Positions 31,445-56,367 of a DNA stretch of 64,000 nt are shown here, piece after piece. Under the pieces are notes generated by a model. The model saw only the letters and a program-made list of their open reading frames with translations. It searched no databases and was not told where the DNA came from. This DNA is from a virus. Position 1 is the stretch's first letter; every line of letters begins with the position of its first letter. The position numbers and the translations under genes are program-made. The stretch lies in IMG/VR virus record IMGVR_UViG_3300017971_000031, positions 1 through 64,000 of that record; one strand, given 5' to 3'.

Positions 31445-31813
31445 TTTGATCTCCTTTCTGTGTTGTGTATGTGGTTTGTTTTGTCTCATGATCTAGCAAT
31501 AGTATACTGCCAAACCTGTGCCAAAAAGGAGAAAACTGCGAAACTTTTTTCGATGCAAATATTCGCAATGATTCTAAGATGTTAGCAGGCTATGTGTTTC
31601 TTTGGGGATCAGGGGATGGGTAGCAGGTAGGCCTGAAAATTCACGTATATGAATCACATTTTTGTAGGAAACGAATATTTGCAATGATCATAAGGACTTA
31701 TGCGGATTTTGCGAAATTCACGTATTTGAACCGAAAAATCGCAGATTTGCATAAGCCCTTATAATCATTAGCAATATGCACAGTTCACGATATTCTGTTT
31801 TTTGAACCCTTTA
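31445..31813. other. Non-coding gap with three copies of a CATAAG/ATGATTGCA motif
   Basis: No gene is visible in 369 bp. Near 31496-31524 is a possible promoter for the gene below. The rest is AT-rich and holds three copies of an element (31554-31577, 31672-31701, 31748-31780), two of them with the perfect 12-bp palindrome type ATAAG-nn-CTTAT (31690-31701 and 31751-31762). The same element recurs between terS and terL. It could be a replication origin or a regulator binding region. Confidence 0.6.
31496..31524 (-). promoter_or_regulatory. Possible second-class early promoter
   Basis: On the - strand: TTGGCA, 17 bp, TATTGC. The block TTGGCACAGGTTTGGCA is repeated with one change near 35127-35143. 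The -10 choice is uncertain. Confidence 0.4.
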
Positions 31814-32374
31814 CTATTTCGACAGGATCCAGGTCGCTATCTGATCCTCGGGGCCATATTTTGCATGTAACTCGACCCGAAGACTGTGATCAGAAAAGAA
31901 GGAATTGTAATCATGATAAAAGCAATGCTTCGACGGAACCCGTCCTTCGATTCCGACTGATGAAGTTAGGAAGATCAGCCCGTTGGAAATCCGAACGTGC
32001 TCTGCAAAGATCCCGGCCAGGTCCTGAGGAGGAACATGCAGAAGGACATATGAAGAGATAACCAGATCAAATGCCCCCTCTGCTTCAGGGATCTGGTGGC
32101 CGTCCCATCCATTTGGCCGTTGCCCTGTTGCAGCTAGACAGCACGTTCGCATGGATTCCACAAAGTCATACATGGTCAGCCGAGCGCGGAACAGCAAACC
32201 TTTCTTCTCTAGGGCTGAATAGATCCGACCATAGCCAGACCCCACCTCGCAAATCTTTCGGAGAGGTTCCGTTTGCAGCAAGGCGGACAGGTAGTCCAGT
32301 TCAATATCATGGGTTTCTCCGCGGTAGGACTTCCCCCGCGCTTCCCAGTATTCTTTCGGATTGTAAGTGGTCAC
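31814..32374 (-). CDS. Class I SAM-dependent methyltransferase, 186 aa
   Basis: The Rossmann-fold motif I is CEVGSGYGRI (~42-51), followed by an acidic strand end (TMYDFVESM) and a motif IV-like FDLVISSYVLLHV. The fold is clear, but the substrate (nucleic acid, protein or small molecule) cannot be deduced. It overlaps the start of the gene coded below it by a few bases of 32371-32973, so it is co-translated with the third winged-helix-family member. Confidence 0.8.
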   Translation of the reverse strand: MTTYNPKEYWEARGKSYRGETHDIELDYLSALLQTEPLRKICEVGSGYGRIYSALEKKGLLFRARLTMYDFVESMRTCCLAATGQRPNGWDGHQIPEAEGAFDLVISSYVLLHVPPQDLAGIFAEHVRISNGLIFLTSSVGIEGRVPSKHCFYHDYNSFFSDHSLRVELHAKYGPEDQIATWILSK

Positions 32375-32973
32375 TTTCCCTCCTGAAGGGTATAGGTTTT
32401 TGCAGCCCGGTCGAACTTGACTTCGAGGATCAGATCGGGCTTTGTCCGTTTGGGGTTTCTCATTATGGCTAGAGCCGTGTTCAGATTACGAGCATCGTAT
32501 CCGGTCTTCGTTAGCAGATCATCCTGAGCCCATGTGGGCTGTTCTGCAAAGGCCTCTCGGAGTAGGGCTGTCTTGGTCTTCTTCTTGGGCCCGGTCGGCT
32601 GCTTCCGTGGTGGCCGTTTGTTTGCAACGGGTCCTCTGGGTTTCCGATCCCGTTTCCCTGCGTTCGGGTTGCTATAACTGAAGATCAGGGGCACATCTGA
32701 TGCTTCCCGGTTGGCCAGATCCTCGGCCGTGATTGTCTTCGGGGGATTGTCCTTCGCGTACTGAATCCCTGCACAGATCGGGCAGGACTTGATATGCTCC
32801 CAGAAGTTATATTCAGGATGCTTCGGGCATTTGAAGTTACCCACTTTCATATCCTCCTTTCGGTGATGGCAGATCGGACAGTTGTCCTCTTTCCAATCAT
32901 AATGAGGAAATCCACAGAACTTGCAGAAGTGATGGAACTGGGGATCGAAGATGAACCGCCGTTCTTCAGTCAT
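32371..32973 (-). CDS. Zinc-finger plus winged-helix-like protein, 200 aa (family member 3)
   Basis: The start at 32973 has GGGAGA 12 bases upstream. The N-terminal ~90 residues carry three Cys pairs (CKFCG, CPICHH, CPICAG) plus KCPKHP, suggesting two zinc sites. A basic linker (RDRKPRGPVANKRPPRKQP) follows. The C-terminal ~65 residues have the family pattern ALLREAFAEQ, KTGYDARNL, AIMRNPKRTK. A DNA-binding role is inferred. The SAP-like part of the other members is absent. Confidence 0.75.
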   Translation of the reverse strand: MTEERRFIFDPQFHHFCKFCGFPHYDWKEDNCPICHHRKEDMKVGNFKCPKHPEYNFWEHIKSCPICAGIQYAKDNPPKTITAEDLANREASDVPLIFSYSNPNAGKRDRKPRGPVANKRPPRKQPTGPKKKTKTALLREAFAEQPTWAQDDLLTKTGYDARNLNTALAIMRNPKRTKPDLILEVKFDRAAKTYTLQEGK

Positions 32974-33160
32974 TGTCTTTGGCCTCATTCTCCCGCTGGA
33001 TCTGCTTGGCCATCCAGCATATCATAATAAAGAACAGAACTAGCCAAATGAGGAAGCAGGGCATAGTGGGGAATGAGTCCGCGATCAGAATCAGCATACT
33101 CGCCCCAAGTGTTGCACCTACCAAAACTTTACCCGCGTTGCATATGAATTGCCGTATCAT
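32966..33160 (-). CDS. Small membrane protein, 64 aa
   Basis: Two hydrophobic segments (VLVGATLGASMLILIA and FLIWLVLFFIMICWM) are followed by a charged cytoplasmic-type tail. The start overlaps the stop of the 56-aa gene upstream (ATGA). Function unknown; early phage membrane peptides often alter host envelope functions or exclude other phages. Confidence 0.65.
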   Translation of the reverse strand: MIRQFICNAGKVLVGATLGASMLILIADSFPTMPCFLIWLVLFFIMICWMAKQIQRENEAKDND

Positions 33161-33327
33161 CCTGTTAGCTCCTTATCCAGAAAATCCTGAAGGACCTGGA
33201 CAATCGTCAGAGCATCCTCGATTGGGTGATGCATCTGATATGAGATGGAATGGTTTTCATTGTGGATCAGTTTCAGCCACGTGCCGTCTCGATCCTCAAC
33301 AACCTCTGCTCGGATAGGGTCACGCAT
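33157..33327 (-). CDS. Small hypothetical protein, 56 aa
   Basis: AGGAGA precedes the ATG at 33327. The peptide (MRDPIRAEVVEDRDGTWLKL, then a His-containing middle) ends in DKELTG with a stop that overlaps the membrane-protein start. Tight overlap on both sides supports that it is translated. No family recognised. Confidence 0.6.
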   Translation of the reverse strand: MRDPIRAEVVEDRDGTWLKLIHNENHSISYQMHHPIEDALTIVQVLQDFLDKELTG

Positions 33328-33547
33328 CGGGATTCTCCTCGTAGAATTTCTCCCATCGTTTGGACTCGCCCGGCTTGCAGGTCAGATGGTGCTCAACCTG
33401 TTCGGGGGATTCTGCATATGCGCCACAGTCATTACAGACATGGACACCAGCCTCTTCGATTTCGGTATATTCCCGTTCGGGGATCTGTTCATCAGGAAAG
33501 CAGGTCTCGCACATCGGGTCACCGCATTTCTCTTCCCATTCGCCCAT
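33320..33547 (-). CDS. Small zinc-binding protein, 75 aa
   Basis: GGAGG precedes the ATG at 33547. Cysteine pairs CGDPMCETC and CNDCG, and a later HHLTC, suggest zinc binding, the second part resembling a C2H2-type finger. The stop overlaps the next start. Function unknown. Confidence 0.6.
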   Translation of the reverse strand: MGEWEEKCGDPMCETCFPDEQIPEREYTEIEEAGVHVCNDCGAYAESPEQVEHHLTCKPGESKRWEKFYEENPDA

Positions 33548-33602
33548 TGATCTAACCTCCGTGGGCAGGATCCGAAGACCCTGCCCTGGTGTCAATTGTG
33601 GG

Positions 33603-34343
33603 TTAAGCAGCCTTCAGGGCTACCATATAGTCGTCAGCGACCCCGTGAAGGGTATCAGTCTGGCGAGCAATCTGCCACAGGCTGGTCTCTCTCATCAGCC
33701 GGGTGGCTGCACCGTGCCAGGTGTACAGAGTCGGGGCCTCGGTCTGCGCGACCTTCAGCTCCTCATCATGGCAGGCCAAGAACTGGGGGAATTTCCCCGG
33801 GCTGAAGACCCCGCGGTCCATTGCATCATAGGTCAGGACCTTGAAGGCTTCCGATTCCAGGGGGAACTGATTGAGCTCATCCAGCCAGTCCACCTGATAC
33901 TGGATCTTCGAAATGAGCTGGCCGACTGCCCGATGAGCAACCTCGTGGATCTCGGCCTCATCCAGATGAGCAGTGTGCCGACGGAACTCCAGGAACTCTC
34001 CCGAGAAGGCCATGTTAGAACAGACGAAGACCTTCGTGCCGGCTGTGATTCCCAACGCGAAAGTCTTACGGATGGAGTTGCGGAAGCCGATCTGCCAACC
34101 GATCTTGTCCGTGCCGCCGTCCAGACCCCATGTGCCGAAGAGGTTATCCCCATCGGCTGCGAGGGAGTAGTCCCGATCCGTTACCACCAGCCCGTGGTCC
34201 TGAACTGCCTTGCCCAAGCAATCGAGCACCTTGCCGTGGCTGTACGGGCGCCAGGTTTCGGTGAACTCAGGTTCCTTGACTGCCCTTACCGCTGCCTCAC
34301 TTACCCTTGTACCGTGTCCGTGTTCTGCGATCCTTGCTGTCAT
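33603..34343 (-). CDS. DUF932 family protein, 246 aa
   Basis: The sequence matches the DUF932 (phage/plasmid-like protein) family in length and motifs: a central FALGITAGTKVFVCSNMAFSG, typical of the family, and a C-terminal YDAMDRG/TLYTWHGAATR region. The family is widespread on phages and plasmids, is often highly expressed early, and has no settled function. AGGAGG precedes the ATG, and the promoter at 34388-34416 is just upstream. Confidence 0.85.
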   Translation of the reverse strand: MTARIAEHGHGTRVSEAAVRAVKEPEFTETWRPYSHGKVLDCLGKAVQDHGLVVTDRDYSLAADGDNLFGTWGLDGGTDKIGWQIGFRNSIRKTFALGITAGTKVFVCSNMAFSGEFLEFRRHTAHLDEAEIHEVAHRAVGQLISKIQYQVDWLDELNQFPLESEAFKVLTYDAMDRGVFSPGKFPQFLACHDEELKVAQTEAPTLYTWHGAATRLMRETSLWQIARQTDTLHGVADDYMVALKAA

Positions 34344-34387
34344 GTTGACCTCCTTATTTAAGTGTGAATATCTGAACTGTTAAAATG

Positions 34388-34416
34388 AATGTATCACGGA
34401 ATAATTTCTTTGTAAA
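34388..34416 (-). promoter_or_regulatory. Sigma-70-like early promoter
   Basis: On the - strand: TTTACA, 17 bp (AAGAAATTATTCCGTGA), TACATT. It drives the DUF932 gene. Confidence 0.75.
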
Positions 34417-34446
34417 CCCCTTTTTTGAAAAAAGATCAAAAAAGTT

Positions 34447-34590
34447 TCAGCCTAACTTCGCGGCCTCTTTCAGACGGTCGATGGCCTTTAGAAGAGCATT
34501 GATCTCCCGGTTGTGGGATTTCTTCTCATTATCGGCTGCGATAATATGGTCGGCGATTTCCAGTCTCAGAAGATTGATTGCACGTTCCAT
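34447..34590 (-). CDS. Small helical protein, 47 aa
   Basis: AAAGGAGA precedes the ATG at 34590. The peptide is predicted to be all helix (MERAINLLRLEIADHIIAAD, then EINALLKAIDRLKEAAKL) and may form a coiled coil. It is preceded by the hairpin at 34605-34626. No family recognised. Confidence 0.6.
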   Translation of the reverse strand: MERAINLLRLEIADHIIAADNEKKSHNREINALLKAIDRLKEAAKLG

Positions 34591-34604
34591 TTGATTCTCC
34601 TTTC

Positions 34605-34626
34605 GGGGATCTGCGGACAGATCCCC
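34605..34626 (-). repeat. Stem-loop directly upstream of a ribosome site
   Basis: A perfect 9-bp stem (GGGGATCTG with CAGATCCCC) and a 4-base loop lie 4 bases before the AAAGGAG of the 47-aa gene. It is one of the recurrent GGGGATC hairpins of the early strand and may stabilise a processed mRNA. Confidence 0.6.
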
Positions 34627-34632
34627 AGTCGG

Positions 34633-34854
34633 TTAGTAGATTGAATCCCCATCACAGATGGAGTGGCTCAGGATAACCTCTTTGCAGTTGATGATTGCGG
34701 GCATCTGAACGACCGCAATGGGCTGAACTGCCCGACAAGGATCAAACTCAGGGAACTGCACCGAGGCCTGCTCGGGGTATAGGATCCGACCAGACTTCTG
34801 AAGGTTGCGAGTGGCTGTTTTGATCATTTCGGATTCGATTAGGTCCTGATTCAT
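34633..34854 (-). CDS. Hypothetical protein, 73 aa
   Basis: GGAGG six bases before the ATG at 34854 sets the start. The sequence begins MNQDLIESEMIKTATRNLQK, has two cysteines and no membrane segment. It ends just upstream of the GGGGATC hairpin. No family recognised. Confidence 0.6.
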   Translation of the reverse strand: MNQDLIESEMIKTATRNLQKSGRILYPEQASVQFPEFDPCRAVQPIAVVQMPAIINCKEVILSHSICDGDSIY

Positions 34855-34900
34855 TTTCCCCTCCTTGGGGTGCCCTGCCCGAAGGCAGGGCGGTTGAGGA

Positions 34901-35083
34901 TTAGATTGACTGAACATAACCCATTTTGGTAAGTTTCTTTTCCAGTTCCACTCGGGTCTTTGCTCGGGCGAGGTAGCTGATGCTGAGGGAATCCTTAGCA
35001 TTCTTTGCATACCAGTGTCCGCTGAAGCCGATTCGGAAGATTTTGATCTGGATGAGTTTTCCTTCTCGTTCGTAGTATGGCAT
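34901..35083 (-). CDS. Hypothetical protein, 60 aa
   Basis: GGAGG precedes the ATG at 35083. The sequence (MPYYEREGKLIQIKIFRIGF, then YLARAKTRVELEKKLTKMGY) suggests a small beta-beta-alpha fold. An IR (GCCCTGCC with GGCAGGGC) lies between this gene and the next. Function unknown. Confidence 0.6.
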   Translation of the reverse strand: MPYYEREGKLIQIKIFRIGFSGHWYAKNAKDSLSISYLARAKTRVELEKKLTKMGYVQSI

Positions 35084-35115
35084 GTTTTTGACCTCCGGGT
35101 TGTTGTTAGTGTTAC

Positions 35116-35143
35116 CATTTAATATATGCCAAATCTGTGCCAA
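35116..35143 (-). promoter_or_regulatory. Possible second-class early promoter
   Basis: On the - strand TTGGCACAGATTTGGCA followed by an AT-rich stretch, resembling the site at 31496-31524. The -10 box is poor (TAAATG at 16 bp), so this is a tentative call. Confidence 0.3.
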
Positions 35144-35230
35144 GTTAGCAGGATTTATTGAGTTATTATTTGCAATCATTTCAATCATTTAGCGATCTGT
35201 GGTTTTTGGGTTGTCCCGATTCCTGCTGGG

Positions 35231-35272
35231 AGTTACAAAAGGATGCAATCTGAATTACATCCTTTTGTAACT
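35231..35272. repeat. Perfect 15-bp inverted repeat
   Basis: AGTTACAAAAGGATG and its exact reverse complement flank a 12-bp spacer. A second hairpin (GGGGGATC with GATCCCCC, 35273-35294) follows without a gap. There is no T run after the stems on the - strand. It may be a protein-binding palindrome or an RNA structure at the end of the 35302-35502 transcript. Confidence 0.7.
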
Positions 35273-35301
35273 GGGGGATCGGTTCAGATCCCCCGAGCAA
35301 G

Positions 35302-35502
35302 TTAGCCAATGTCCCCATTCTCCATTGCCAGCCCCATCTGAATTTCCCCGATCGGTTCTTCAGTATTCATCAGGGTAGCTGCAACCGCCTCACCCTCTGC
35401 CGAGTAGTCAGTTCCCTTGGTGGCGAACTTCATCAGTTTGGCAGCGCGCTCGATCAGTTCCTCAGCCTGTCTCATTGCCTTTTTTCGATCTTCGTATCTC
35501 AT
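35302..35502 (-). CDS. Hypothetical protein, 66 aa
   Basis: GGGAGGAAAAATG marks the start at 35502. The N-terminal half is helical and basic (MRYEDRKKAMRQAEELIERA); the rest is acidic. Its ribosome site and start codon are complementary over 16 bases, with one bulge, to the candidate small RNA at 54226-54303. Function unknown. Confidence 0.6.
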   Translation of the reverse strand: MRYEDRKKAMRQAEELIERAAKLMKFATKGTDYSAEGEAVAATLMNTEEPIGEIQMGLAMENGDIG

Positions 35503-35533
35503 TTTTCCTCCCTGTTTGATTGTTGTTGAGTGC

Positions 35534-35562
35534 ATTGTATACTATCTGCAAACGTTTGTAAA
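35534..35562 (-). promoter_or_regulatory. Sigma-70-like early promoter
   Basis: On the - strand: TTTACA, 17 bp (AACGTTTGCAGATAGTA), TACAAT. Directly behind the terminator at 35584-35619. Confidence 0.78.
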
Positions 35563-35583
35563 CCCCTTTTTTGCATTTTTTTG

Positions 35584-35619
35584 AAAAAAGTTTGCGGGGG
35601 ATCAGATCAGATCCCCCGC
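35584..35619 (-). terminator. Rho-independent terminator joined to a promoter
   Basis: On the - strand a 10-bp perfect stem (GCGGGGGATC with GATCCCCCGC, 6-base loop) is followed by AAACTTTTTTC. It ends the 35628-35933 gene and is 22 bp from the next -35 box. Confidence 0.75.
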
Positions 35620-35627
35620 TTGCGGGG

Positions 35628-35933
35628 TTAGATTTGTCGGGTGAGTTCTGTCAGATCAGACGGAATTTCGGACTGGGATTCGGTTAGCTGTTTCACAAGC
35701 TGGATCAGTTTGTGAATGTCAGGCTGGATCTGAATCAGAACAGCGCGAAGGATACAGGATTCGGCAGAATCGATAGCAAGATATCCTTCGTACAGTTCAG
35801 TTGTCAGAGTATCTAAGTCTGATCGGCTGTAGATGGTGAGCAGTTTTTTCATTTGCTCAGGAACGACGGAATCCATCTGGCTGTAGTTTTCAGAGTTGAA
35901 AAGGTCTGTCATTTCTTGAATTAGGTCAGTCAT
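35628..35933 (-). CDS. Hypothetical protein, 101 aa
   Basis: GGGAGG precedes the ATG. The protein is largely helical and acidic (MTDLIQEMTDLFNSENYSQM), with no cysteine cluster or membrane segment. It forms a single-gene unit between its own promoter (35966-35994) and terminator (35584-35619). Function unknown. Confidence 0.6.
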   Translation of the reverse strand: MTDLIQEMTDLFNSENYSQMDSVVPEQMKKLLTIYSRSDLDTLTTELYEGYLAIDSAESCILRAVLIQIQPDIHKLIQLVKQLTESQSEIPSDLTELTRQI

Positions 35934-35965
35934 TTTTTCCTCCCTTTTGAATTGTTGTTAAGTAT

Positions 35966-35994
35966 ACAATAACACATTTCCTAACCTTTGTAAA
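35966..35994 (-). promoter_or_regulatory. Sigma-70-like early promoter
   Basis: On the - strand: TTTACA, 17 bp (AAGGTTAGGAAATGTGT), TATTGT. Confidence 0.75.
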
Positions 35995-36037
35995 CCCCTT
36001 TTTTGCATTTTTTTTGAAAAAGTTCAAACTTTTTTTG

Positions 36038-36090
36038 TACCACAAAGTGCAGCCATGTCCTACCACACTGTGTTATACCACAAAGTGGTA
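36038..36090. promoter_or_regulatory. Operator-like cluster of TACCACA repeats
   Basis: TACCACA occurs at 36038, 36061 and 36076. The third copy is the palindrome TACCAC-AAA-GTGGTA (36076-36090). The related TACCACAAAG sequence also overlaps the -10 region of the promoters at 37921 and 54056. This looks like a binding site array for a regulator. Confidence 0.5.
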
Positions 36091-36148
36091 AGTCGCGATT
36101 GGAGCCTGCCTACTTCCTAAAGGTTCGAAAGAAAGTCCGGCAAAGGAA

Positions 36149-36170
36149 ATCCCCTGCCGGAGCAGGGGAT
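36149..36170. repeat. Stem-loop with CCCCTGC arms
   Basis: A perfect 9-bp stem (ATCCCCTGC with GCAGGGGAT) around CGGA lies between the 36205-36411 gene and the TACCACA cluster. It is of the same family as the other GATC hairpins. No T run follows. Confidence 0.55.
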
Positions 36171-36204
36171 CGGGTGGAAGGACGACGGGCGGAGTTGGGG
36201 TGGG

Positions 36205-36411
36205 TTAGAAGTATTTGGCCTTTGCTTCCTCGTAATCTACCTCCTCGAATTCGGGGCCTTCCTGATAGACGAGGAAACCCAGTTTGTCTTCGTGGCTGAT
36301 GATCAGATAGCTGGTCATGTCTGCTCGGACCGAGGTGTCGTCCAGATCAGAATCAACCTGCTCGCGGAGCCATTCAATAGCATCTGATGAATTCACAAAG
36401 TGGTAATTCAT
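36205..36411 (-). CDS. Hypothetical protein, 68 aa
   Basis: The start overlaps the stop of the upstream gene by four bases, with GGAGG-type sequence before it. The protein is acidic (SDLDDTSVRADMTSYLIISH, then EEVDYEEAKAKYF). No family recognised. Confidence 0.6.
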   Translation of the reverse strand: MNYHFVNSSDAIEWLREQVDSDLDDTSVRADMTSYLIISHEDKLGFLVYQEGPEFEEVDYEEAKAKYF

Positions 36412-36809
36412 CTGGAGAACCTCCTCTCGGTCTTCTTGATAGCAGTTAGGACTTCATGCATCCGGATCGTGGCCGTGCTGATCGTGGCCATATGGGCCGG
36501 GCTGTCACCATTGATGATTGTCCATTGGAACAGATACCCTCGGGAACTTGCCCCATAGTCGGGCTGAACCCCATCAAACCGAACTCCCGGTAGCGAGGTA
36601 CGGGCTTTGAAATCCTGTCCTGCCGTAAAGGCTGCTTTCCCGAATTTGGTCAGGGCTGTATTTTTGTGGCCGTCAAACCCCATCCAGAACATCTTAAAGA
36701 TAGGGTTGTCTACTGATCTGGAACCATCCTCCAAATCATACGGGGGATGGTCCACCAAATACTGCCTGAGCTCCGAAGGATTAGTATTTCTGATCTGATT
36801 GCTGGTCAT
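36408..36809 (-). CDS. Hypothetical protein, 133 aa
   Basis: AGGAGG lies before the ATG. The sequence has a polar N-terminus, a middle with GFDGHKNTALTKFGKAAF and a basic C-terminus (AIKKTERRFSR). No motif that I recognise. It is coupled to the 68-aa gene below. Confidence 0.6.
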   Translation of the reverse strand: MTSNQIRNTNPSELRQYLVDHPPYDLEDGSRSVDNPIFKMFWMGFDGHKNTALTKFGKAAFTAGQDFKARTSLPGVRFDGVQPDYGASSRGYLFQWTIINGDSPAHMATISTATIRMHEVLTAIKKTERRFSR

Positions 36810-36821
36810 GAGGATTCCTCC

Positions 36822-37034
36822 TTAAGAAATAATATGGGCCTCATCAATGTATCCCCAGTAGCTACCAGCAAAAATCTTCGGGGCCAACCCCTTAGCTTTG
36901 CAGTCTTCTTCTGAGAATTCATAACCGAAAGTTCCGTCTTCCTCATTTATACTGGAGACGGTTACGATGTTTTCGTCGAGGCTTACGTTGTAGATTCTAA
37001 CTCTGTTTCCTATTTGCAGTTTATTCTCGGTCAT
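36822..37034 (-). CDS. Hypothetical protein, 70 aa
   Basis: The start at 37034 is used because a longer frame would run through the promoter at 37068-37096. The beta-rich pattern (LQIGNRVRIYNVSLDENIVT) with a final YIDEAHIIS resembles a small SH3-like or KOW-like barrel. Function unknown. Confidence 0.6.
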   Translation of the reverse strand: MTENKLQIGNRVRIYNVSLDENIVTVSSINEEDGTFGYEFSEEDCKAKGLAPKIFAGSYWGYIDEAHIIS

Positions 37035-37067
37035 TTTGTTTCCCCCTTGTGTTATTGTGTTAAGAAT

Positions 37068-37096
37068 ACAATAACACATCTGCAAACGTTTGTAAA
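37068..37096 (-). promoter_or_regulatory. Sigma-70-like early promoter
   Basis: On the - strand: TTTACA, 17 bp (AACGTTTGCAGATGTGT), TATTGT. Confidence 0.75.
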
Positions 37097-37125
37097 CCCC
37101 TTTTTTGCATTTTTTTGAAAAAAGT

Positions 37126-37302
37126 TCAAACTTTTTTCTGAGGACGAAATCCATCGGCCTCGGTCGGCTGACCGGCCAGCAGCTTGCGGAGCTCCTGAGC
37201 ACAGTGGGAATATACCGGGCCGGATCCGTTCTCGGCCTTATCTGCCCGCTCTGTCCATTTGTCAATCAGCTCCTGAACCCTAACTTTGTCCCGTCGTTGC
37301 AT
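37126..37302 (-). CDS. Small hypothetical protein, 58 aa
   Basis: AAAGGAG precedes the ATG at 37302. The basic peptide starts MQRRDKVRVQELIDKWTERA, continues with a helical part and ends FRPQKKV, its stop lying inside the A/T block that precedes the promoter cassette. No family recognised. Confidence 0.55.
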   Translation of the reverse strand: MQRRDKVRVQELIDKWTERADKAENGSGPVYSHCAQELRKLLAGQPTEADGFRPQKKV

Positions 37303-37306
37303 GTTC

Positions 37307-37678
37307 CTAATCTCCTTTGACCTGTTCTAGGGATTTGATAAATCTCATCAGCCCCTTCTCTGTCTTGGGGATCTTCAGACCCCGAATGGCATGGGCTGCT
37401 CGTATGCGAAGTCTCTTCAATCGGATTCTCTTCTGGAACTGCTCATCATATTCTTGGATCCTGTTCCGGTGCCACGTGTCCCCTGGTTCGCGGCCATCCG
37501 ACCGCCGAAACCTGTACTCGATCTCGGGGTCCTCAGGATGGATCTGATGCACGATGAACTGGGTCTTTGTCAGCCGTTTGACCCTGCCCGTATAGATCCG
37601 ATCCCCGCGGGTGCTGCTCAGGGTTACTCCCACAATTGACCCAATCTGAAGTCTGCTCATCCATTCACTAAGTTCCAT
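37307..37678 (-). CDS. Basic hypothetical protein, 123 aa
   Basis: GGAGA precedes the ATG at 37678. The first ~60 residues are beta-like (IGSIVGVTLSSTRGDRIYTG, then VKRLTKTQFIVHQI); the rest is a very basic helical part (KRIRLKRLRIRAAHAIRGLK). Nucleic-acid binding is possible. Ends overlap neighbours closely, consistent with one operon. Confidence 0.6.
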   Translation of the reverse strand: MELSEWMSRLQIGSIVGVTLSSTRGDRIYTGRVKRLTKTQFIVHQIHPEDPEIEYRFRRSDGREPGDTWHRNRIQEYDEQFQKRIRLKRLRIRAAHAIRGLKIPKTEKGLMRFIKSLEQVKGD

Positions 37679-37892
37679 TGTAAATCTCCATGACTTTTTG
37701 GACTTGATCCTCGGACAGTTCCCGACGAAGTTTGGCACCGCTCAGGATCCTGATCTCTCTGCCTGTCCTCATATTGGTTGCTCGCCAGCCTTGCTTATTC
37801 TTCCGGATTTGTTTTTCAATCCGAACGGCTGTCAACCGCCCACTCACCTTAGCCACGTACAGTGCCCCAACTTTGACTTCCTTCTTCAGCAT
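37668..37892 (-). CDS. Small basic protein, 74 aa
   Basis: GGAGGAAGG before the ATG at 37892 fixes the start. The sequence (KVGALYVAKVSGRLTAVRIE, then NKQGWRATNMRTGREIRI) fits a small beta barrel with many basic residues. The stop overlaps the next gene by 11 bp. Function unknown. Confidence 0.6.
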   Translation of the reverse strand: MLKKEVKVGALYVAKVSGRLTAVRIEKQIRKNKQGWRATNMRTGREIRILSGAKLRRELSEDQVQKVMEIYNGT

Positions 37893-37920
37893 GTTCCTTC
37901 CTCCGATTTGTTTCAAACAG

Positions 37921-37949
37921 ATTGTACCACAAAGAAATTATTCTGTAAA
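37921..37949 (-). promoter_or_regulatory. Sigma-70-like early promoter
   Basis: On the - strand: TTTACA, 17 bp (GAATAATTTCTTTGTGG), TACAAT. Shares its spacer with 54056-54084 and 21085-21113. A stem-loop (37961-37983) lies upstream. Confidence 0.78.
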
Positions 37950-37987
37950 CCATTATTTTGGGGCCGGCCGAAACCGACCCCGTTTGG

Positions 37988-38293
37988 TTAGTTAGTAATC
38001 TCTACCCAGCCGACCATGTCGCACTGCCAGGCGGTGTCTGTTTCCATATCCCAGACAACGTCCCCGACCGACATGGACGTGTGCTTCAGGCCGAGGCCTT
38101 GGATCAGTTCGCGGGCCTCTCCCATCGGGCTCCAAACCTCTCCCTGCATCAGGCGGAACACGTCCCCATATTCTTCTGCCTGGATCTCTTTGACCTGACG
38201 GTGTGTCCGTTCTGACAGAACGTCCTCGCGGGTTAGGTTCTTGTCTAGCATGAAGGTCGGTTCTGTTCGGTAGTATACGGTGAATTCTTTCAT
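37988..38293 (-). CDS. Hypothetical protein, 101 aa
   Basis: GGAGG precedes the ATG at 38293. The protein begins MKEFTVYYRTEPTFMLDKNL and ends WQCDMVGWVEITN; a mixed alpha/beta fold is likely. It follows the hairpin at 38306-38327. No family recognised. Confidence 0.6.
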   Translation of the reverse strand: MKEFTVYYRTEPTFMLDKNLTREDVLSERTHRQVKEIQAEEYGDVFRLMQGEVWSPMGEARELIQGLGLKHTSMSVGDVVWDMETDTAWQCDMVGWVEITN

Positions 38294-49537: not shown

Positions 49538-49882
49538 TTAAAGGTAGGCCCTGAACAGGATCCTGCCTTGTTTGACTTCATTGGAATAGAAGATGGGCCG
49601 GTTCAGTAGGGACTCGATCCTAATTGTGGGATCAAGCATCACGTAGTCCCCTAGCTGTGTGAAGGCCTGAATCAGGAACTGGTCGACGGGATTTACTAGC
49701 CATATGAAGGTTTGGCGGGCTGCATATGACTGTGCGTTCCATAGATCCACGATTAAGTCTAGAATGGCCTCGGGCTCTTCCTCCTCTGTGAATGTCAGGG
49801 TTTGGGTTTCGAATATATACTGTTCTTGCTTGCGACCTTTTGCACCTACAACTCCGAGTTGCTTCTTCTGATCTGATCCCAT
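49538..49882 (-). CDS. Hypothetical protein, 114 aa
   Basis: The sequence has a helical middle (AILDLIVDLWNAQSYAARQT) and a hydrophobic stretch (FIWLVNPVDQFLIQAF) too polar for a membrane segment. CCCACAATT motifs flank its end (49531, 49622). No family recognised. Confidence 0.55.
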   Translation of the reverse strand: MGSDQKKQLGVVGAKGRKQEQYIFETQTLTFTEEEEPEAILDLIVDLWNAQSYAARQTFIWLVNPVDQFLIQAFTQLGDYVMLDPTIRIESLLNRPIFYSNEVKQGRILFRAYL

Positions 49883-49909
49883 TCGTTGTGCTCCGTATAT
49901 GTGTGGGTT

Positions 49910-50122
49910 TCACTGGATAACCTGTACGTCTGATTCTATCACTTCTTTGATCAGACCGGCTTCGGCATCGATTAGGCCAACGATGAATTTAGGATCCTTG
50001 ACAGCGGATCCGTCCTCGTCTGGAAATTCGAGGATCTCTGTTGCAATGACCCCGGGCGGAAACTCAGGTTTGAATTTGATATCGCAGTCCTTAACTTTCA
50101 CTGTGATTCGTATCTTCAGCAT
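49910..50122 (-). CDS. Hypothetical protein, 70 aa
   Basis: GGAGAG precedes the ATG at 50122. Beta-like N-terminus (MLKIRITVKVKDCDIKFKPE) and acidic C-terminus. It overlaps the gene upstream by 32 bp. No family recognised. Confidence 0.55.
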   Translation of the reverse strand: MLKIRITVKVKDCDIKFKPEFPPGVIATEILEFPDEDGSAVKDPKFIVGLIDAEAGLIKEVIESDVQVIQ

Positions 50123-50483
50123 GGTCTCTCCTGGCGATTTTGCGCAGCCGTTTCCTGAGCTTGGCCACCGCTGATTCATATGAAGGATCAGGATCCTTTG
50201 TATTTCGTTTGTGCTTGCGGAACAGTTCGTGCGACCTGTCTATTTCGCTTCTGAGAACAAACTGGATGGAATTCGGATGCGTGGGTGGGCTGAGATGATG
50301 GCTGCGTTCAGGGTAGGGATAAGACCCGTAAGTTGCGATCGTGATAGTTTGGTTTGTATCATCGATCAGGATTCCTGTCTTGAGCGGTGGCGGACAGTCA
50401 TAAGGGTAAACTCCGTCTTTCAGACCTAGCAGTCTTACAATGGCCTTGTGCTTACGGGGTGACAGCAAATTACAAGGTTGCAT
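50091..50483 (-). CDS. Hypothetical protein, 130 aa
   Basis: AGGAGA before the ATG. The first part is beta-like (LLGLKDGVYPYDCPPPLKTG); the C-terminus is basic and helical (KLRKRLRKIARRDHAED), possibly nucleic-acid binding. It overlaps its upstream neighbour by 14 bp. No family recognised. Confidence 0.6.
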   Translation of the reverse strand: MQPCNLLSPRKHKAIVRLLGLKDGVYPYDCPPPLKTGILIDDTNQTITIATYGSYPYPERSHHLSPPTHPNSIQFVLRSEIDRSHELFRKHKRNTKDPDPSYESAVAKLRKRLRKIARRDHAEDTNHSES

Positions 50484-50940
50484 ATCTCATCTCCTCTCGT
50501 TTGATCTGTTCTACTTTGATTCGGGTTAGCTGATGAAGAATCATCTGGTTGCGGGCGGTGTTATAGAACAGCCAGCGTTTTGCTCCTCGCTGGTCAGCCA
50601 TCCCGTGCCAATCTGCTATCATCTGGTAGATATACCTCATTGGCATTGGGACAGGTTCTTGCTTGCTCCCGTTCACCGCGACCCAATAATTCCAGTGGTG
50701 TTTGTTTCTGTTTTGATGATGGTTCCATGCCTTCTGAAATCTGAGTTCACGCCGTTTCTCTTCCCGAGCGTTTGCGGTCGGTTTACCATAGAACTTATCC
50801 GCGTACGCGAAGAATTCCCGAGGGGAGAACTTTGACAGATCATGGGTGATGGCGTGGATCCATAAACCGTCTGTAAAACATACTTTGCCAACGTACCATT
50901 TGTGCTTCAGGATGTACAGAAGATATCGCAAATATTTCAT
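50470..50940 (-). CDS. DUF5662 family protein, 156 aa
   Basis: The sequence has the family pattern: LKHKWYVGKVCF, then HAITHDLSKFSPREFFAYA, then FQKAWNHHQNRNKHHW. The many His residues with HD suggest an HD-like metal site, but no activity is established for the family. It overlaps the SNF2 gene by four bases. Confidence 0.82.
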   Translation of the reverse strand: MKYLRYLLYILKHKWYVGKVCFTDGLWIHAITHDLSKFSPREFFAYADKFYGKPTANAREEKRRELRFQKAWNHHQNRNKHHWNYWVAVNGSKQEPVPMPMRYIYQMIADWHGMADQRGAKRWLFYNTARNQMILHQLTRIKVEQIKREEMRYATL

Positions 50941-52652
50941 ATCAATTCCTCTATTTCATGGTCTCTGAAGAATTCGGCAATCTCAGTTTTAGTGTCACGA
51001 GATCGTTTGATCGTATCATCCACCGTACCGCGAATATAGATATCCTTATAAAGAACAGGATTATGTTGACCGCGCCGATGAGACCGATCTTCTGATTGCC
51101 ATCTATCTTCAAGCTTAAACGAATCTGAGAAGTAGTAGTGCAGGGTGGATGCTTGGAGATTGAGACCTGTCCCAGCTGTCGCTGGGTTAGCGACAAGGTA
51201 ATCGATTTCTCCCTGTTGGAAAAGGCTGACAATTTCATCTCGCTCCTTCCTCTTGGTTGCTCCGTAATAGGTAGCCGTAGCTCTCTCAGGATATGCCGCT
51301 CGTAAGGCACGTGCAATGTGGACTATCTGCACTGGGAAGACAGACCATATGATGACCTTAGCTCCATCTGTAACGTCCTCCAGATCATACATGAGCGCGT
51401 CCAGCTTAGGATTATTATCCCCTAACGGTTCATCGGTCTCGGGGAAAAATCCCCCGACGATCTGTTGGAACCGAATCAGGAGGGATACCTTATTCTTGAC
51501 CGTGAGCTCGTGGTCCTTGTAGACTGTCCGAAATTCCTCTTCAAGTTCCTGGTAGGCCTGCTTCTGAGCATCATTCATTTCGCAGTATATCGGGGTGTAG
51601 ATCTTGGGTGGCAAGTCAAGCGCGTCCTTCTTCAGGATCCTATAGGAATCCCGTTTGATCCGCTCCCGGAGTTCAGCCAGATTCTTGTATGTCAAGAGTT
51701 TTGGGAATTCTCTCAGGCCGCCCTTCTCATTGATGGTTCTGATTTCCCGGATGAGCTTGGTATTAGTAACCTCGAGTTTCTTTTCAGATCCCACCTTGTG
51801 CAAGAAGTAATGCATACGGCCTGATTTCTCCCTGAACGAAGTCCAGTCCAGAGGAGCCTGACACGCCTTGCATTCATATTTCGTTTTCCAGGCCTTGGTT
51901 CCGCGGTCGAAATAGCGGACAACCTTAAAGGCTGTCTTGCTACCGCACTCTCCGCATTCGGCCTTTTGCTTGGTTCCCTGAATCTTCACGAACTGGTTTT
52001 CATACTGGCCATAGTGCCGAGTGAACCAATAGTGAGACTTGCCACCCCAATACCCCTCGGCCAGGAATTCAAATTGACTGTATACGTCAAACGGGCTGTT
52101 TGTGACTTCGTTCCCGGTCAGGATTCTGCGATACGGGGCCATGTCCCTCAGTTTAGTTATAGACTTAGTCCTGTTTGAGCCGTGTCCTTTAATACGGGTG
52201 GATTCATCCACTGCTACTAGAGTGGTGTGGGTGCGACAGAAGTTGTAGGCCATATTCTTGGCCTTGCCCATCTGAAAGGATTCAACGTTCATAGTTAGGA
52301 TCTGAAGGACTCCAGGATCCTTGGCAAACACGGCTTCAAGTTCATCCATCCCCTTCTTGGTCTTGGCCTTGTGTGCAGCCCATACGGCTGCCCGCCACTC
52401 GATCCTGTCTGGCAGATGCTCTGGGATCTGTTCAGTCACCCAGCGTTCATGGACACCATTTGGAGCAATCAGAAGAAAGGCCTCAATTTGTCCCCTCTCA
52501 AATAGGATACCCACATTGTCGATAGTGACTTTAGTTTTCCCCGTGCCCCTGTCCATTAGGTAAGCAAAGAAAGGACGGTTCCAGCCTTTGGTCAATGCAG
52601 CCCGCTGGAAATCATATGGATTTGTTTTGAACTCGTATTTCTTCTCAGCCAT
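50937..52652 (-). CDS. SNF2-family helicase/ATPase with zinc ribbon insert, 571 aa
   Basis: Walker A is DRGTGKTKVT (~34-43), motif II is VDES (~150), and the C-terminal helicase half shows ATAGTGLNLQ and QSEDRSHRRGQ (motifs V and VI). An inserted CGECG...CKAC zinc ribbon lies at ~235-265. Phage SNF2 proteins of this size occur in replication modules and probably remodel or translocate on DNA. It is among the first genes transcribed from the divergent region. Confidence 0.92.
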   Translation of the reverse strand: MAEKKYEFKTNPYDFQRAALTKGWNRPFFAYLMDRGTGKTKVTIDNVGILFERGQIEAFLLIAPNGVHERWVTEQIPEHLPDRIEWRAAVWAAHKAKTKKGMDELEAVFAKDPGVLQILTMNVESFQMGKAKNMAYNFCRTHTTLVAVDESTRIKGHGSNRTKSITKLRDMAPYRRILTGNEVTNSPFDVYSQFEFLAEGYWGGKSHYWFTRHYGQYENQFVKIQGTKQKAECGECGSKTAFKVVRYFDRGTKAWKTKYECKACQAPLDWTSFREKSGRMHYFLHKVGSEKKLEVTNTKLIREIRTINEKGGLREFPKLLTYKNLAELRERIKRDSYRILKKDALDLPPKIYTPIYCEMNDAQKQAYQELEEEFRTVYKDHELTVKNKVSLLIRFQQIVGGFFPETDEPLGDNNPKLDALMYDLEDVTDGAKVIIWSVFPVQIVHIARALRAAYPERATATYYGATKRKERDEIVSLFQQGEIDYLVANPATAGTGLNLQASTLHYYFSDSFKLEDRWQSEDRSHRRGQHNPVLYKDIYIRGTVDDTIKRSRDTKTEIAEFFRDHEIEELI

Positions 52653-53067
52653 CAGAATCCTCTAGATAGGTAAATGCTTCTTCAGGGATATCGAAATGGA
52701 CCCGTTTGCCGTCCACTCTGTATTCCGTAATATGGATCATCTCAGCCGGCAGGGGCATTCCGTGAACAAAGGAATAGGCTACACACAACCTGCCCTTCGA
52801 CCTCTTGCTTCCTCTTCGGACGAGCTTGTTTGCTTCCCGCTGGTCTGTTTTGAATATCGAGGCCATTCCGTCCTCAGATCCAAAGGCCATGTTTACTCGA
52901 TCCCCGATCTTTAGGAATAGGCCTTGTGCGATCAGCTCCCCGATATAGATTTTGATCTCCTTGGGTTCCCCCTTGGATTTGCCGACCGAGATTGAAATGC
53001 AATTACTCAGGTCGACCCCTAGTTTCTCTGCTTTCTTCTGTTGAATCAAACCAGCCATTGTATGCAT
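52645..53067 (-). CDS. Hypothetical protein, 140 aa
   Basis: The start at 53067 overlaps the end of the membrane-protein gene region and has GAGG upstream. The pattern (GVDLSNCISISVGKSKGEPK, then LKIGDRVNMAFGSEDG) looks like a beta-rich domain with a Lys/Arg-rich middle (KLVRRGSKRSKGRL). It overlaps the SNF2 gene by eight bases. No family recognised. Confidence 0.6.
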   Translation of the reverse strand: MHTMAGLIQQKKAEKLGVDLSNCISISVGKSKGEPKEIKIYIGELIAQGLFLKIGDRVNMAFGSEDGMASIFKTDQREANKLVRRGSKRSKGRLCVAYSFVHGMPLPAEMIHITEYRVDGKRVHFDIPEEAFTYLEDSDG

Positions 53068-53068
53068 A

Positions 53069-53422
53069 TTATACCTCAATCCAGTGAAAAGTTACAATCA
53101 GGCAAATGAAATGGATGAGCTGATCCAGCCCAACCATATTGAAGAATCTGTTATGCATACCCTGGGTCGTGAAGGCCCAGCGGGTACCTTTCGAAGTTGC
53201 TGAGTCTACCAATATATGGAGGACGCAGTTCAGAAGCAGCCACGGCAGGCTGAAGAAATAGACGAACGGGAGGATATAGCAGAACCCGTGACAGAGCATC
53301 ATGACCCTGTTGGTTCCTTTGGTGTCGGCCATCCTGTCCCACTGAAGCAAAAAGTCACCGACGAAATGGAGTGTAAGCAGAGCGAGGATATTCATCGTAT
53401 AAGACAGTCCTAATGTTTCCAT
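53069..53422 (-). CDS. DUF3307-like membrane protein, 117 aa
   Basis: The sequence follows the DUF3307 pattern: LLTLHFVGDFLLQWDRMA, then CHGFCYILPF, LLNCVLHILVDS and VGLDQLIHFICL, with three or four membrane segments and conserved His/Asp residues inside them. The family is found in phages and bacteria; function unknown. GGAGG-type site before the ATG. Confidence 0.75.
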   Translation of the reverse strand: METLGLSYTMNILALLTLHFVGDFLLQWDRMADTKGTNRVMMLCHGFCYILPFVYFFSLPWLLLNCVLHILVDSATSKGTRWAFTTQGMHNRFFNMVGLDQLIHFICLIVTFHWIEV

Positions 53423-53784
53423 TATTTCCTCCTATTTCCGACCATCCTCCGGTTGTGATAATTTGGCGTGCATGTGAATTGACTTCGGATGTTCGGGATG
53501 AGGTTTCGGGGTGGCTTCTGATTGCCCCAATAGCGGGTTGAGTCCTTCTGGCGAATGTATTCATAATAGGTATCGTGTTCAAGGGTATCCGCAAATTTGC
53601 GAATCATTAAGGTGAGTGTTTCCTGAGCTTCAGCCAAATTTTCTAATGCGCCTACCAAGGATGTCAGGTCGGACGTACCGCATAAAATGGTCTGTTCTTC
53701 CTCAGCAATCATGGCGCAGACACGGGCCTCGATTTCTGCATAATCTCCAGCAAGAACGACCCCGCTCCATCCACTTCCAGGCAT
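53422..53784 (-). CDS. Hypothetical protein with polymerase motif-A-like N-terminus, 120 aa
   Basis: AAGGA precedes the ATG. Residues ~8-27 (VVLAGDYAEIEARVCAMIAE) resemble motif A of family A DNA polymerases (DYSQIEARVLA), but nothing else in the protein does. The middle is helical (DLTSLVGALENLAEAQETLT) and the C-terminus basic. Either a coincidence or a relic of a polymerase gene. It abuts both neighbours. Confidence 0.55.
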   Translation of the reverse strand: MPGSGWSGVVLAGDYAEIEARVCAMIAEEEQTILCGTSDLTSLVGALENLAEAQETLTLMIRKFADTLEHDTYYEYIRQKDSTRYWGNQKPPRNLIPNIRSQFTCTPNYHNRRMVGNRRK

Positions 53785-54005
53785 CAGGAATCCTTTCGCG
53801 GGCGACCGGGCGGTCTAGTTAAGGTATGGCCTTTGACCAGATCCTTTCTCAGGAAATAGTCCCGACCTATCCGCTCCGCTGTTAGCTTTCCCTCTTTGAT
53901 TAACTGAATCACCCGGGGCCTTGTTACCCCGAGCACTCTGGCCGCTTCATCAGTAGTAAACCAGCCGTCTCTTATTTTGGGGATTGTGGGTGTTTGAGTT
54001 TCCAT
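53784..54005 (-). CDS. Excisionase-like HTH DNA-binding protein, 73 aa
   Basis: The sequence GWFTTDEAARVLGVTRPRVI with QLIKEGKLTAERIGRDYFL is a MerR/excisionase-type HTH_17 domain. It is the first gene of the early strand, ~44 nt below its promoter at 54056-54084. Position at the divergent control region suggests a transcriptional regulator. No integrase is visible, so an excisionase role is unlikely. Confidence 0.85.
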   Translation of the reverse strand: METQTPTIPKIRDGWFTTDEAARVLGVTRPRVIQLIKEGKLTAERIGRDYFLRKDLVKGHTLTRPPGRPRKDS

Positions 54006-54055
54006 TTGTCTGTTCCTTTCGTCCTGCGTTACTCTTCCTCCCGATCTTCCCCCTT

Positions 54056-54084
54056 GTTATACCACAAAGAAATTATTCTGTAAA
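54056..54084 (-). promoter_or_regulatory. Sigma-70-like early promoter of the HTH gene
   Basis: On the - strand: TTTACA, 17 bp (GAATAATTTCTTTGTGG), TATAAC. The spacer is identical to that of 37921-37949. Behind it is an inverted repeat (ATCACGGG with CCCGTGAT). Confidence 0.78.
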
Positions 54085-54190
54085 CCATTAATCACGGGAG
54101 AAGGATCCTTGCCCTTGTCCCGTGATCAGACCCGCGCAGCGGGTCATTTAAGGCTGGCCAAGGCCACCCTCAAATTACTGAAAAAAGGGG

Positions 54191-54219
54191 TTTACAGATC
54201 CCCCGACCCGTGGTATACA
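54191..54219 (+). promoter_or_regulatory. Early-type promoter on the + strand
   Basis: GGGG-TTTACA at 54191-54196, 17 bp, TATACA at 54214-54219, with an A-rich block (AAAAAAGGGG) upstream as in the early cassettes. It is the only one of the series that points to the + strand. Confidence 0.72.
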
Positions 54220-54225
54220 AGGAAC

Positions 54226-54303
54226 CATGATGGACGACGGGCTTTACCACATCTCATTTCTTCCTCCGGCGGAAGGCCTCTCGGGAAACCGAGGGGCCTT
54301 TTT
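54226..54303 (+). ncRNA. Candidate small regulatory RNA (~78 nt)
   Basis: The promoter at 54191-54219 and the strong terminator at 54275-54303 delimit a transcript of about 78 nt. It contains ATCTCATTTC and TTCCTCC (54251-54267), the complement of early ribosome site plus start codon sequences; with 35302-35502 it could form 7 and 9 bp around a one-base bulge. The CTTCC/GGAAG pair (54260-54275) could form a small second hairpin that shields part of this. A short frame from the ATG at 54227 runs past the terminator, so coding is unlikely. Confidence 0.6.
54275..54303 (+). terminator. Rho-independent terminator of the small RNA
   Basis: A 10-bp stem (GGCCTCTCGG with CCGAGGGGCC, one G-U pair), a GAAA loop and five T residues. 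Near-ideal intrinsic terminator. Confidence 0.9.
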
Positions 54304-54318
54304 GCTTCTGCAAAAGAG

Positions 54319-54722
54319 GCATACGGGGGTTACGGCCCACCTCAAAAACACCCCAAATACAACCTACTGAAATCATTTCATAAAATCGGCACGAGCATAC
54401 GGCCGTATGCTGGCCGTATGCCGCCCCGTATGCCGTTGGGGTAAATTCTCAAGTGACTGATATCATTACAGATCCGCTCAAAAACGGGTCGCCGATTCCC
54501 CTCGATTCACTGCATCAGACAGTATACGCGTGAAAATGGATTCGGTGAAAAAATTTTTCAAGAAATCCATTTTGGCCGTATGCCCGTATGCTTTTGGGAA
54601 TAATCAGTGATGATGCTAAATTGTTGATCGTCCAACGTCCCGTGATCATTACTGATATACGCGTGGGACCGAAATTGGAAACGGCATACGGGCAGGCATA
54701 CGGCTGGCATACGGCCGTATGC
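54319..54722. repeat. Iteron cluster GCATACGG / CCGTATGC (11 copies)
   Basis: The 8-mer occurs at 54319, 54395, 54403 (inverse), 54414, 54426, 54576, 54584, 54684, 54696, 54707 and 54715. Two pairs form perfect palindromes (54395-54410 and 54706-54723); the last is followed by TTTTT. Chance would give about 0.01 copies in this span. Binding array for an initiator or regulator is inferred. Confidence 0.85.
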
Positions 54723-54942
54723 CTTTTTCCTCGATTATTGGTGGAATGGATATAGAATTGTGGTTTATCTCCCCAGATCCTTATCCCACGCGAATTCTGA
54801 ACTGAAGAAAAGAGTTTCTGCTCTTTTCCCTCTACGCGCGTATAATCGCGGGCACGATCCTATTAGATGTCGGGGATCTGTTCAGATCAGCCACCTAGGT
54901 AGAAAATCTATATGTGGATTTTATTGCGGATATGACCGGGCT

Positions 54943-55084
54943 GGGCTGATCCCACAATTAGGTCCTAACTAAGGACATATATCCCACGGATATGACAGAA
55001 AAATGGGTGGACAGGGCTGATCCCACAATTAGGTCCTAACTAAGGACATATATCCCACGGATATGACAGAAAAAAGGGGTGGAC
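54943..55084 (+). repeat. 71-bp tandem duplication
   Basis: Positions 54943-55013 and 55014-55084 are the same sequence except for one substitution or insertion near the end. Each copy contains GGGCTGATCCCACAATTAGG, a phage-wide recurring motif, and the palindromic GGTCCTAACTAAGGACA. Confidence 0.9.
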
Positions 55085-55137
55085 AGGACTGGCCGACTGT
55101 GGTATGGATGTGTATCAATCCAGTAAGTAATTGGATT

Positions 55138-55198
55138 CTAGTTAGCAGCTCAGAAGAAAATGACTGATGCCGCCTAACTAGTTTTGCGTAGTCATTTT
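55138..55198 (+). repeat. Two interleaved inverted repeats upstream of terS
   Basis: CTAGTTAG (55138-55145) pairs with CTAACTAG (55174-55181), and AAAATGACT (55157-55165) pairs with AGTCATTTT (55190-55198). The interleaved order a-b-a'-b' is that of an H-type pseudoknot in RNA, ending ~22 bases before the terS start. A DNA-binding role is the alternative. Confidence 0.55.
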
Positions 55199-55220
55199 GC
55201 TAATAAGGAACTCAATCGGA

Positions 55221-55862
55221 ATGGCCAAAAAACCTGCTAAGAAATCAGATCAGAAACCAAGACCTCGGAAGAGAGGACCTGGGCGGCCTAAAGGCTCGCG
55301 GCCTAAAGGTCCTCCGAGAATTCCCAAAAAGGTCCTCTTTCGGGAGATGCTGGTCAAGTATATTGCCGATCCGAAGAATGAGTTTCCTACCCGTACGCAG
55401 ATGGCCACTGAAGTTTGCAAGACCACTGTTGGCAATTTCTACAAGCACTTCAACTTGGAAGAGATGCTGGAGATAGAACAGGAAGGATTTGACCTCAGGC
55501 AGAAAGCTCGGCTTCGGAACCTGACTCAAGTTTACGATGCGATGGAAGCAGCCGCGACAGGGTTCGAGCATGATGCCGTCCATATTTCACAATTCCAGGG
55601 ACAGGTCATTGAAACCCCGATCACGAAGAAGTATAAGCCAGATCCGGCCGCGGCCAGCTTACTGATGGACAGGCTGCAAGGCAAGGTACCTAGCAAGACT
55701 GAACTAACCGGAAAGGACGGGGCACCATTAGGGGCTGGCGTCCTCCCAATTGCCGCTTTGGACCTGACCTTATTGGATGACGATGAATTAGCTTTGGTTG
55801 AGAAGATCGGCATGAAACTCCTGAAGGCCAAAGAGGATGAGGAGCAGGGTTCTTCCTCATAA
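55221..55862 (+). CDS. terS: Terminase small subunit, 213 aa
   Basis: The start at 55221 gives a basic N-terminal tail (KKPAKKSDQKPRPRKRGPGR) followed by an HTH (FPTRTQMATEVCKTTVGNFY), then a helical oligomerisation part and a C-terminal TGKDG segment typical of small terminases. It recognises the packaging site on phage DNA and loads the large subunit. The gene precedes the large terminase, but three long tandem repeats separate them. GGAACT or TCGGA are only weak ribosome sites, so an upstream TTG start at 55197 remains possible. Confidence 0.85.
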   Translation: MAKKPAKKSDQKPRPRKRGPGRPKGSRPKGPPRIPKKVLFREMLVKYIADPKNEFPTRTQMATEVCKTTVGNFYKHFNLEEMLEIEQEGFDLRQKARLRNLTQVYDAMEAAATGFEHDAVHISQFQGQVIETPITKKYKPDPAAASLLMDRLQGKVPSKTELTGKDGAPLGAGVLPIAALDLTLLDDDELALVEKIGMKLLKAKEDEEQGSSS

Positions 55863-56367
55863 GGTCGCCAGTTGATTTCGATCGTCGTAAATGTGCAAAC
55901 ATAAGTCCTTATAATGATTGCATATTTTGCAACACCATTTTCAGAATCTTGACCGGTGGTCGACCTTTTCAGAAAACCTTGACCCACTACGAAGACCAGG
56001 GTTAGGATTCTGATCCCCCGCAAGGAACTAAGGTCGCCATCTGATTTCAGTCGTCGTAAATGTGCAAACATAAGAGACTGTAATGATTGCATATTTTGCA
56101 ATACAGTTTTCAGGATTTTGACCCGAGGTCGGGGTTTTCAGAAAACCTTGACCCACTACGAAAATCAAGGAATCTTGACCCACTACGAAGATCAGGGTTA
56201 GGATTCTGATCCCCACGAGGGATTAAGGTCGCCAGTTGATTTCAGTCGTCGAAGATGTGCAAACATAAGGTATTGAAATGATTGCATATTTTGAAACTTG
56301 ATATCTAGGATTTTGACCCAAGGTCAAGGTTTTCAAGAAACCGTGACCCACTACGAAAAAGGTCGGT
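55861..56367 (+). repeat. Three long tandem repeats between terS and terL
   Basis: Copies begin at 55861, 56030 and 56225 (AAGGTCGCCA or AAGGTCGCC start; 169, 195 and ~143 bp). Each carries TGTGCAAACATAAG, a TATAATGATTGCATATTTTGC-like segment and GACCCACTACGAA. The second has an internal duplication of the last element; the third is cut off by terL. No gene is visible. Position fits a packaging (pac/cos) site or a regulatory leader. Confidence 0.85.

Follow-up and report, generated by a model that had tools for sequence, protein, structure and literature searches.

Two distant non-coding regions of one phage genome, near 31.5 kb and between terS and terL, carry the same long sequence motif, and this raises the question of which factor, if any, they share. 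The initial annotation placed three copies in each region and proposed a common factor for them: a replication initiator, a packaging protein or a regulator. The window that we analysed covers positions 1 to 64,000 of a virus record of 78,051 bp, here called G000, and we compared it with the genomes of related phages.

A motif family in non-coding control regions

At least eight copies of the motif are present in G000, every one in a non-coding control region. The three copies at 31.5 kb and the three at 55.9-56.3 kb were all found where they had been reported, and the copy at 35.16 kb, previously described as partial, is by its matrix ranks a genuine seventh. Weaker copies were found by matrix scan at 54448 and 54631, in addition to the full copy at the early/late junction. 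The motif copies and their immediate surroundings are as follows.

31556..31586, minus strand: motif copy a, 31 bp, GCTAACATCTTAGAATCATTGCGAATATTTG; 46 bp from its core to TTTGGCACAG
31640..31653, no strand assigned: palindrome-like repeat TTCACGTATATGAA, between motif copies
31672..31702, minus strand: motif copy b, 31 bp, CATAAGTCCTTATGATCATTGCAAATATTCG
31717..31730, no strand assigned: palindrome-like repeat TTCACGTATTTGAA, between motif copies; a third, partial copy lies near 31784
31750..31780, plus strand: motif copy c, 31 bp, CATAAGCCCTTATAATCATTAGCAATATGCA
35163..35193, minus strand: motif copy, 31 bp, upstream of the second TTGGCAC box
54358..54388, plus strand: motif copy, 31 bp, TACAACCTACTGAAATCATTTCATAAAATCG, at the early/late junction upstream of terS
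55197..55862, plus strand: terS
55861..56365, plus strand: tandem array of three units (about 169, 195 and 140 bp), from terS to terL
55900..55930, plus strand: motif copy d, 31 bp
56069..56099, plus strand: motif copy e, 31 bp
56264..56294, plus strand: motif copy f, 31 bp
56368..57912, plus strand: terL

All copies share a near-palindrome of 13 bp, TGWAATSATTRCA, set between AT-rich flanks: YNTAAR precedes this core and AAATAWTT follows it to the right. Every copy carries AATSATT or a one-base variant, with half-sites TGW/RCA. The 13-bp palindrome is perfect in TGAAATCATTTCA at 54.37 kb and in TGTAATCATTACA of the related phage G001, where the copy TTGTAATCATTACAA forms a perfect 7-1-7 palindrome. 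The core had earlier been given as ATAAG-nn-CTTAT, kept in four copies exactly or as a close variant; this inner palindrome is exact in three only (31.67, 31.75 and 55.90 kb), and the shared part is better described by TGWAATSATTRCA.

The tandem units between terS and terL (169/195 bp) start at the terS stop codon and are 85% and 77% identical. Since the three copies at 55.9-56.3 kb lie in these units, they are not independent and count as one region; it is the remaining regions that supply independent copies. Additionally, a direct repeat of 70 bp, with 96% identity and a spacing of 71, occupies 54938-55078, just upstream of terS.

A position matrix with a whole-genome scan, the check proposed at the outset, ranked all sites above every other position, and shuffles at the composition of the AT-rich gaps failed to reproduce this ranking. 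Equally many hits inside genes or in shuffled sequence had been named as the outcome that would refute a shared element; instead, every copy outscores all other genome positions. When each region was left out of the matrix in turn, the window sites scored 21.7-30.4 bits, as against 14.6-16.7 bits for the best other position, and all 14 sites of three genomes came first in their own genome, a rank that is partly circular for the sites at 54.36 kb and in the relatives G001 and L052, which were themselves discovered by matrix scan. The landing of top hits in non-coding regions at matching places is not built into the matrix. Trained only on the 55.9 kb copies, a matrix put those at 31.67 and 35.16 kb on top of all other positions in the 78-kb genome; one from the 31.5 kb copies ranked those at 55.90, 56.26 and 35.16 kb first; and for one trained on G001 only, the best eight hits in the 78-kb genome were the eight sites, the ninth falling elsewhere. 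We conclude that the motif is a real, conserved family of predicted binding sites. No Rfam families or tRNAs were found in the window.

Conservation in related phages

The relative G001 (61,951 bp, opposite orientation to G000) shares 63% identity in the polymerase, 63% in TerL, 61% in the helicase, 62% in the primase and 60% in a 294-aa protein. Its convincing motif copies are confined to two non-coding regions that match those of G000: the gap upstream of the homologue of a winged-helix gene (3215, 3346 and perhaps 3579) and a 740-bp gap beside terS (52322 and 52389, 67 bp apart). Matrices trained on either genome alone each find the sites of the other. As terS and terL overlap in G001, where the repeats between them are absent, only G000 of the two has the tandem units.

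A second relative, the 16-kb contig L052 (helicase 47% identical), has copies at 7175 and 7243, 68 bp apart, between the gene at the terS position and NUDIX-like, HTH_17 and helicase genes. The G000 matrix scores them above all shuffles, and the matrix from G001 only does not single them out. In a further phage, G002, one copy beside terS scores no higher than AT-rich chance and is non-significant. The scanned stretches of the distant isolates DSL-LC04, 023Pt_psg01 and ct3Et533 held no convincing copies, and the three control regions, searched as DNA, had no match among 50,697 phage records. Among viral contigs, the exact motif 20-mer matched a single unrelated sequence, where it falls in a gene region, and a degenerate pattern recovered G001 alone plus apparent chance matches in coding DNA. 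Searching GTDB genomes with the helicase did not yield a host.

An origin-like region beside terS

The junction between early and late genes, upstream of terS, carries a second class of repeats.

53784..54005, minus strand: HTH_17 protein, 73 aa, with an AT-hook-like GRP tail; first early gene and candidate binder
54319..54722, no strand assigned: origin-like repeats; GCATACGG occurs 11 times, in both orientations, surrounding an AT-rich palindrome at 54533-54573

The terS-side gap of each of four phages holds short repeats private to that phage: GCATACGG in G000, and GTGTTAC, GCCGCCAC and TTGTAC in the others. In G001, L052 and G002 these form inverted sets that flank a spacer of about 50 bp, which is AT-rich in L052 and G002 and only about 48% AT in G001. 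The G000 junction has repeat clusters in both orientations around its AT-rich palindrome, and no one simple inverted pair; by sequence composition, G000, L052 and G002 have AT-rich segments flanked by repeats at the junction. In both G000 and G001 the GC skew reaches its minimum at the early/late junction, where the switch of gene orientation confounds it. Taken together, the terS-side regions look like predicted theta origins. A DnaA-box origin was considered and rejected: TTATNCACA is not clustered, with 1 match in 64 kb as against 1.67 expected.

In SPP1, oriL and oriR are two distant regions that share repeats and are bound by one phage protein, gp38; one origin is within the early region, the second occupies a long gap between late genes, and their elements are direct repeats and an AT-rich unwinding element (PMC6316719). 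Like SPP1, G000 has the same repeat boxes in at least two distant regions. Unlike SPP1, the constant motif of the G000 type pairs with partner repeats that vary between phages and regions, and one motif copy keeps a fixed distance from a promoter-like box. Nor was a gp38-like initiator found here, where the candidates are HTH_17 and winged-helix proteins, so the likeness to SPP1 holds in outline only.

Next to this region, the segment 54190-54303 folds with a z of -3.15. By eye, it contains a plus-strand sigma-70-like promoter (about 54190-54219, TTTACA-17-TATACA), with a terminator-like hairpin, GGCCTCTCGGGAAACCGAGGGGCC-TTTTT, no more than about 80 nt downstream. A small RNA beside the predicted origin is possible.

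Promoter-like boxes and candidate binding proteins

The motif regions at 31.5 and 35.1 kb both lie close to promoter-like boxes.

29879..30763, minus strand: 294-aa conserved protein, downstream of the winged-helix gene in the same direction
30908..31444, minus strand: winged-helix protein, 178 aa, the domain being C-terminal; ATG at 31444, downstream of the TTGGCACAGGTTTGGCA box
31508..31524, minus strand: promoter-like box TTGGCACAGGTTTGGCA (GG-N10-GC)
35127..35143, minus strand: promoter-like box TTGGCACAGATTTGGCA

G000 and G001 each have just two matches to TTGGCAC-N7-GCA, and all four lie next to copies of the motif, with a gene downstream. At the winged-helix operon the spacing from AATCATT to TTTGGCACAG is 46 bp in both phages, even though most of the sequence in between has diverged. 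At 35.1 kb the distance from the motif to the first box is off by 12 bp, and the second TTTGGCA of that box comes within 1 bp of the 46-bp spacing. The G001 homologue of the 178-aa winged-helix protein is also downstream of the same box, and that of the 294-aa protein (60% identical) sits behind the other TTTGGCACAG box. A sigma-70 reading of the TTGGCAC box was discarded, as no -10 element is seen by eye at the proper spacing. Elsewhere, at 35540-36020, leaders GGGGTTTACAAA with TTTTTTGCATTTTTTTGAAAAA recur before several of the small genes on the minus strand; this repeated early-promoter unit was recognized by eye and partly also by computation.

Of the candidate binders we rate highest the HTH_17 protein, whose gene opens the early operon. 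With its GRP tail it is the first early gene in both G000 and G001, and it adjoins the helicase in L052; each of the five phages examined has HTH_17 domains, and the domain is common among phages. The second candidate is the 178-aa winged-helix protein, which has the site in its own promoter. Its C-terminal domain is confidently predicted (pLDDT about 90), and its structural matches, many winged-helix proteins among them, are weak (best E 0.09). One C-terminal winged-helix domain is common to three window proteins (25972-26832, 30908-31444 and 32371-32988), and homologues of the window's proteins with this domain are found in G001, G002, G003 and G006. The early region also encodes an asparagine-synthase-like/glutamine amidotransferase protein (24080-25462), 54% identical in G001.

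Discussion

A site common to independent regions and to the matching regions of relatives, all of them non-coding, gives good support to the proposed common factor, which could be an initiator or a regulator, or one protein serving as both. The explanation that we favour, with about an even chance of being correct, is a single phage DNA-binding protein that recognizes the motif and works both at promoters and at a predicted origin. One sequence-specific protein, most likely phage-encoded, would read TGWAATSATTRCA as a dimer together with the AT-rich flank. It would bind at the predicted theta-replication origin at the early/late junction upstream of terS, beside the phage-specific inverted repeats, and at early/middle operon promoters, chiefly that of the winged-helix operon, at fixed spacing from the TTTGGCACAG box. 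Binding would thereby couple origin function to operon transcription. The sequence itself shows the site, that it is confined to control regions, that two relatives keep it in matching places, the repeats resembling an origin and the constant spacing; the binding, the origin, the sign of regulation and the identity of the binder are what we infer. Counting against this explanation, partner repeats differ between regions even inside G000, so a classical pairing of a single initiator with its iteron is not evident, and the copies between terS and terL are a lineage-specific triplication.

A purely transcriptional role is somewhat unlikely. The motif would be an operator or enhancer through which a phage regulator acts on early, middle and late promoters; the TTGGCACAG box at 31.5 and 35.1 kb would be a sigma54-like -24/-12 promoter, and the motifs its upstream activator sites. 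The 46-bp spacing to TTTGGCACAG fixed in two phages, the restriction of TTGGCAC-N7-GCA to these promoters and the multiple upstream copies in both orientations all suit such a role. As in sigma54 promoters, TTGGCAC and GG-N10-GC are kept at all four boxes of G000 and G001, with multiple palindromic sites upstream. However, sigma54 promoters have TGGCAC(G) at -24 and TTGC(A/T) at -12, and here the -12 half is poorly kept and variable (TGGCA, CCGCA), with the TT missing. The domain of the AAA+ sigma54 activators (PF00158) is absent from G000 and G001, a result that covers phage-encoded activators only, and the other motif regions have no box. With a poor -12 half and no phage activator gene, the sigma54 likeness stays a lead; the literature on sigma54-type phage promoters yielded nothing bearing on these boxes. 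Although the junction and the terS-terL gap precede late genes and contain promoter-like hexamers (TTGACC-18-TAGGAT), promoter-like hits at 54-56 kb equal the shuffle mean, the 54-56 kb stretch lacks a TGGCAC box, and the paired inverted repeats of the junction are left unexplained.

We consider it improbable that the motif serves a DNA-binding protein of the host as its box at origins and promoters, whether of the Fur/Zur/PerR 7-1-7 type, DnaA, IHF or another nucleoid protein. The TAATNATTA-like, palindromic motif core resembles the 7-1-7 boxes of Bacillus Fur, Zur and PerR, the perfect palindrome TTGTAATCATTACAA of G001 being close to Zur/PerR boxes, and a single factor at sites with differing partner repeats suits a host protein. 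Unlike such boxes, the motif has extra conserved flanks outside the palindrome, and its sites are limited to phage control regions. Neither G000 nor G001 has a FUR domain (PF01475), which rules out a phage-encoded FUR only; DnaA boxes are not enriched, and the pattern search of viral contigs gave no other phage using the motif in control regions, its hits looking like chance matches in coding DNA. The packaging role suggested by the initial annotation, with the motif as a TerS recognition element (pac or cos) and the terS-terL repeats as the main site, is disfavoured and very improbable. Packaging sites are often located at terS; a copy adjoins terS in G000, G001 and L052, with the non-significant one in the terS-side gap of G002, and the window's TerS has an AT-hook-like N-terminus. 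Yet copies at 31.5 and 35.2 kb, and at 3.2-3.4 kb in G001, are remote from the terminase genes, so the motif is not confined to the terS end; G001 lacks the terS-terL repeats, and the AT-hook-like tail is missing from its TerS. In L052, two motif copies lie upstream of a terS-position protein that by eye appears unrelated to the window's TerS. Given this unlikeness and the distance of copies from the terminase genes, TerS is an unlikely binder.

We suggest, speculatively and as an unlikely prospect, a modular origin/operator system in this phage clade, in which one constant core is the docking site in all replication and transcription control regions, while the specificity repeats next to it are exchanged freely from phage to phage and from region to region. 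The origin and control network of an uncultured phage group can be predicted from its DNA alone, with candidate proteins named. If the layout of constant core and changing partners is true, phage origins can switch specificity yet retain one component.
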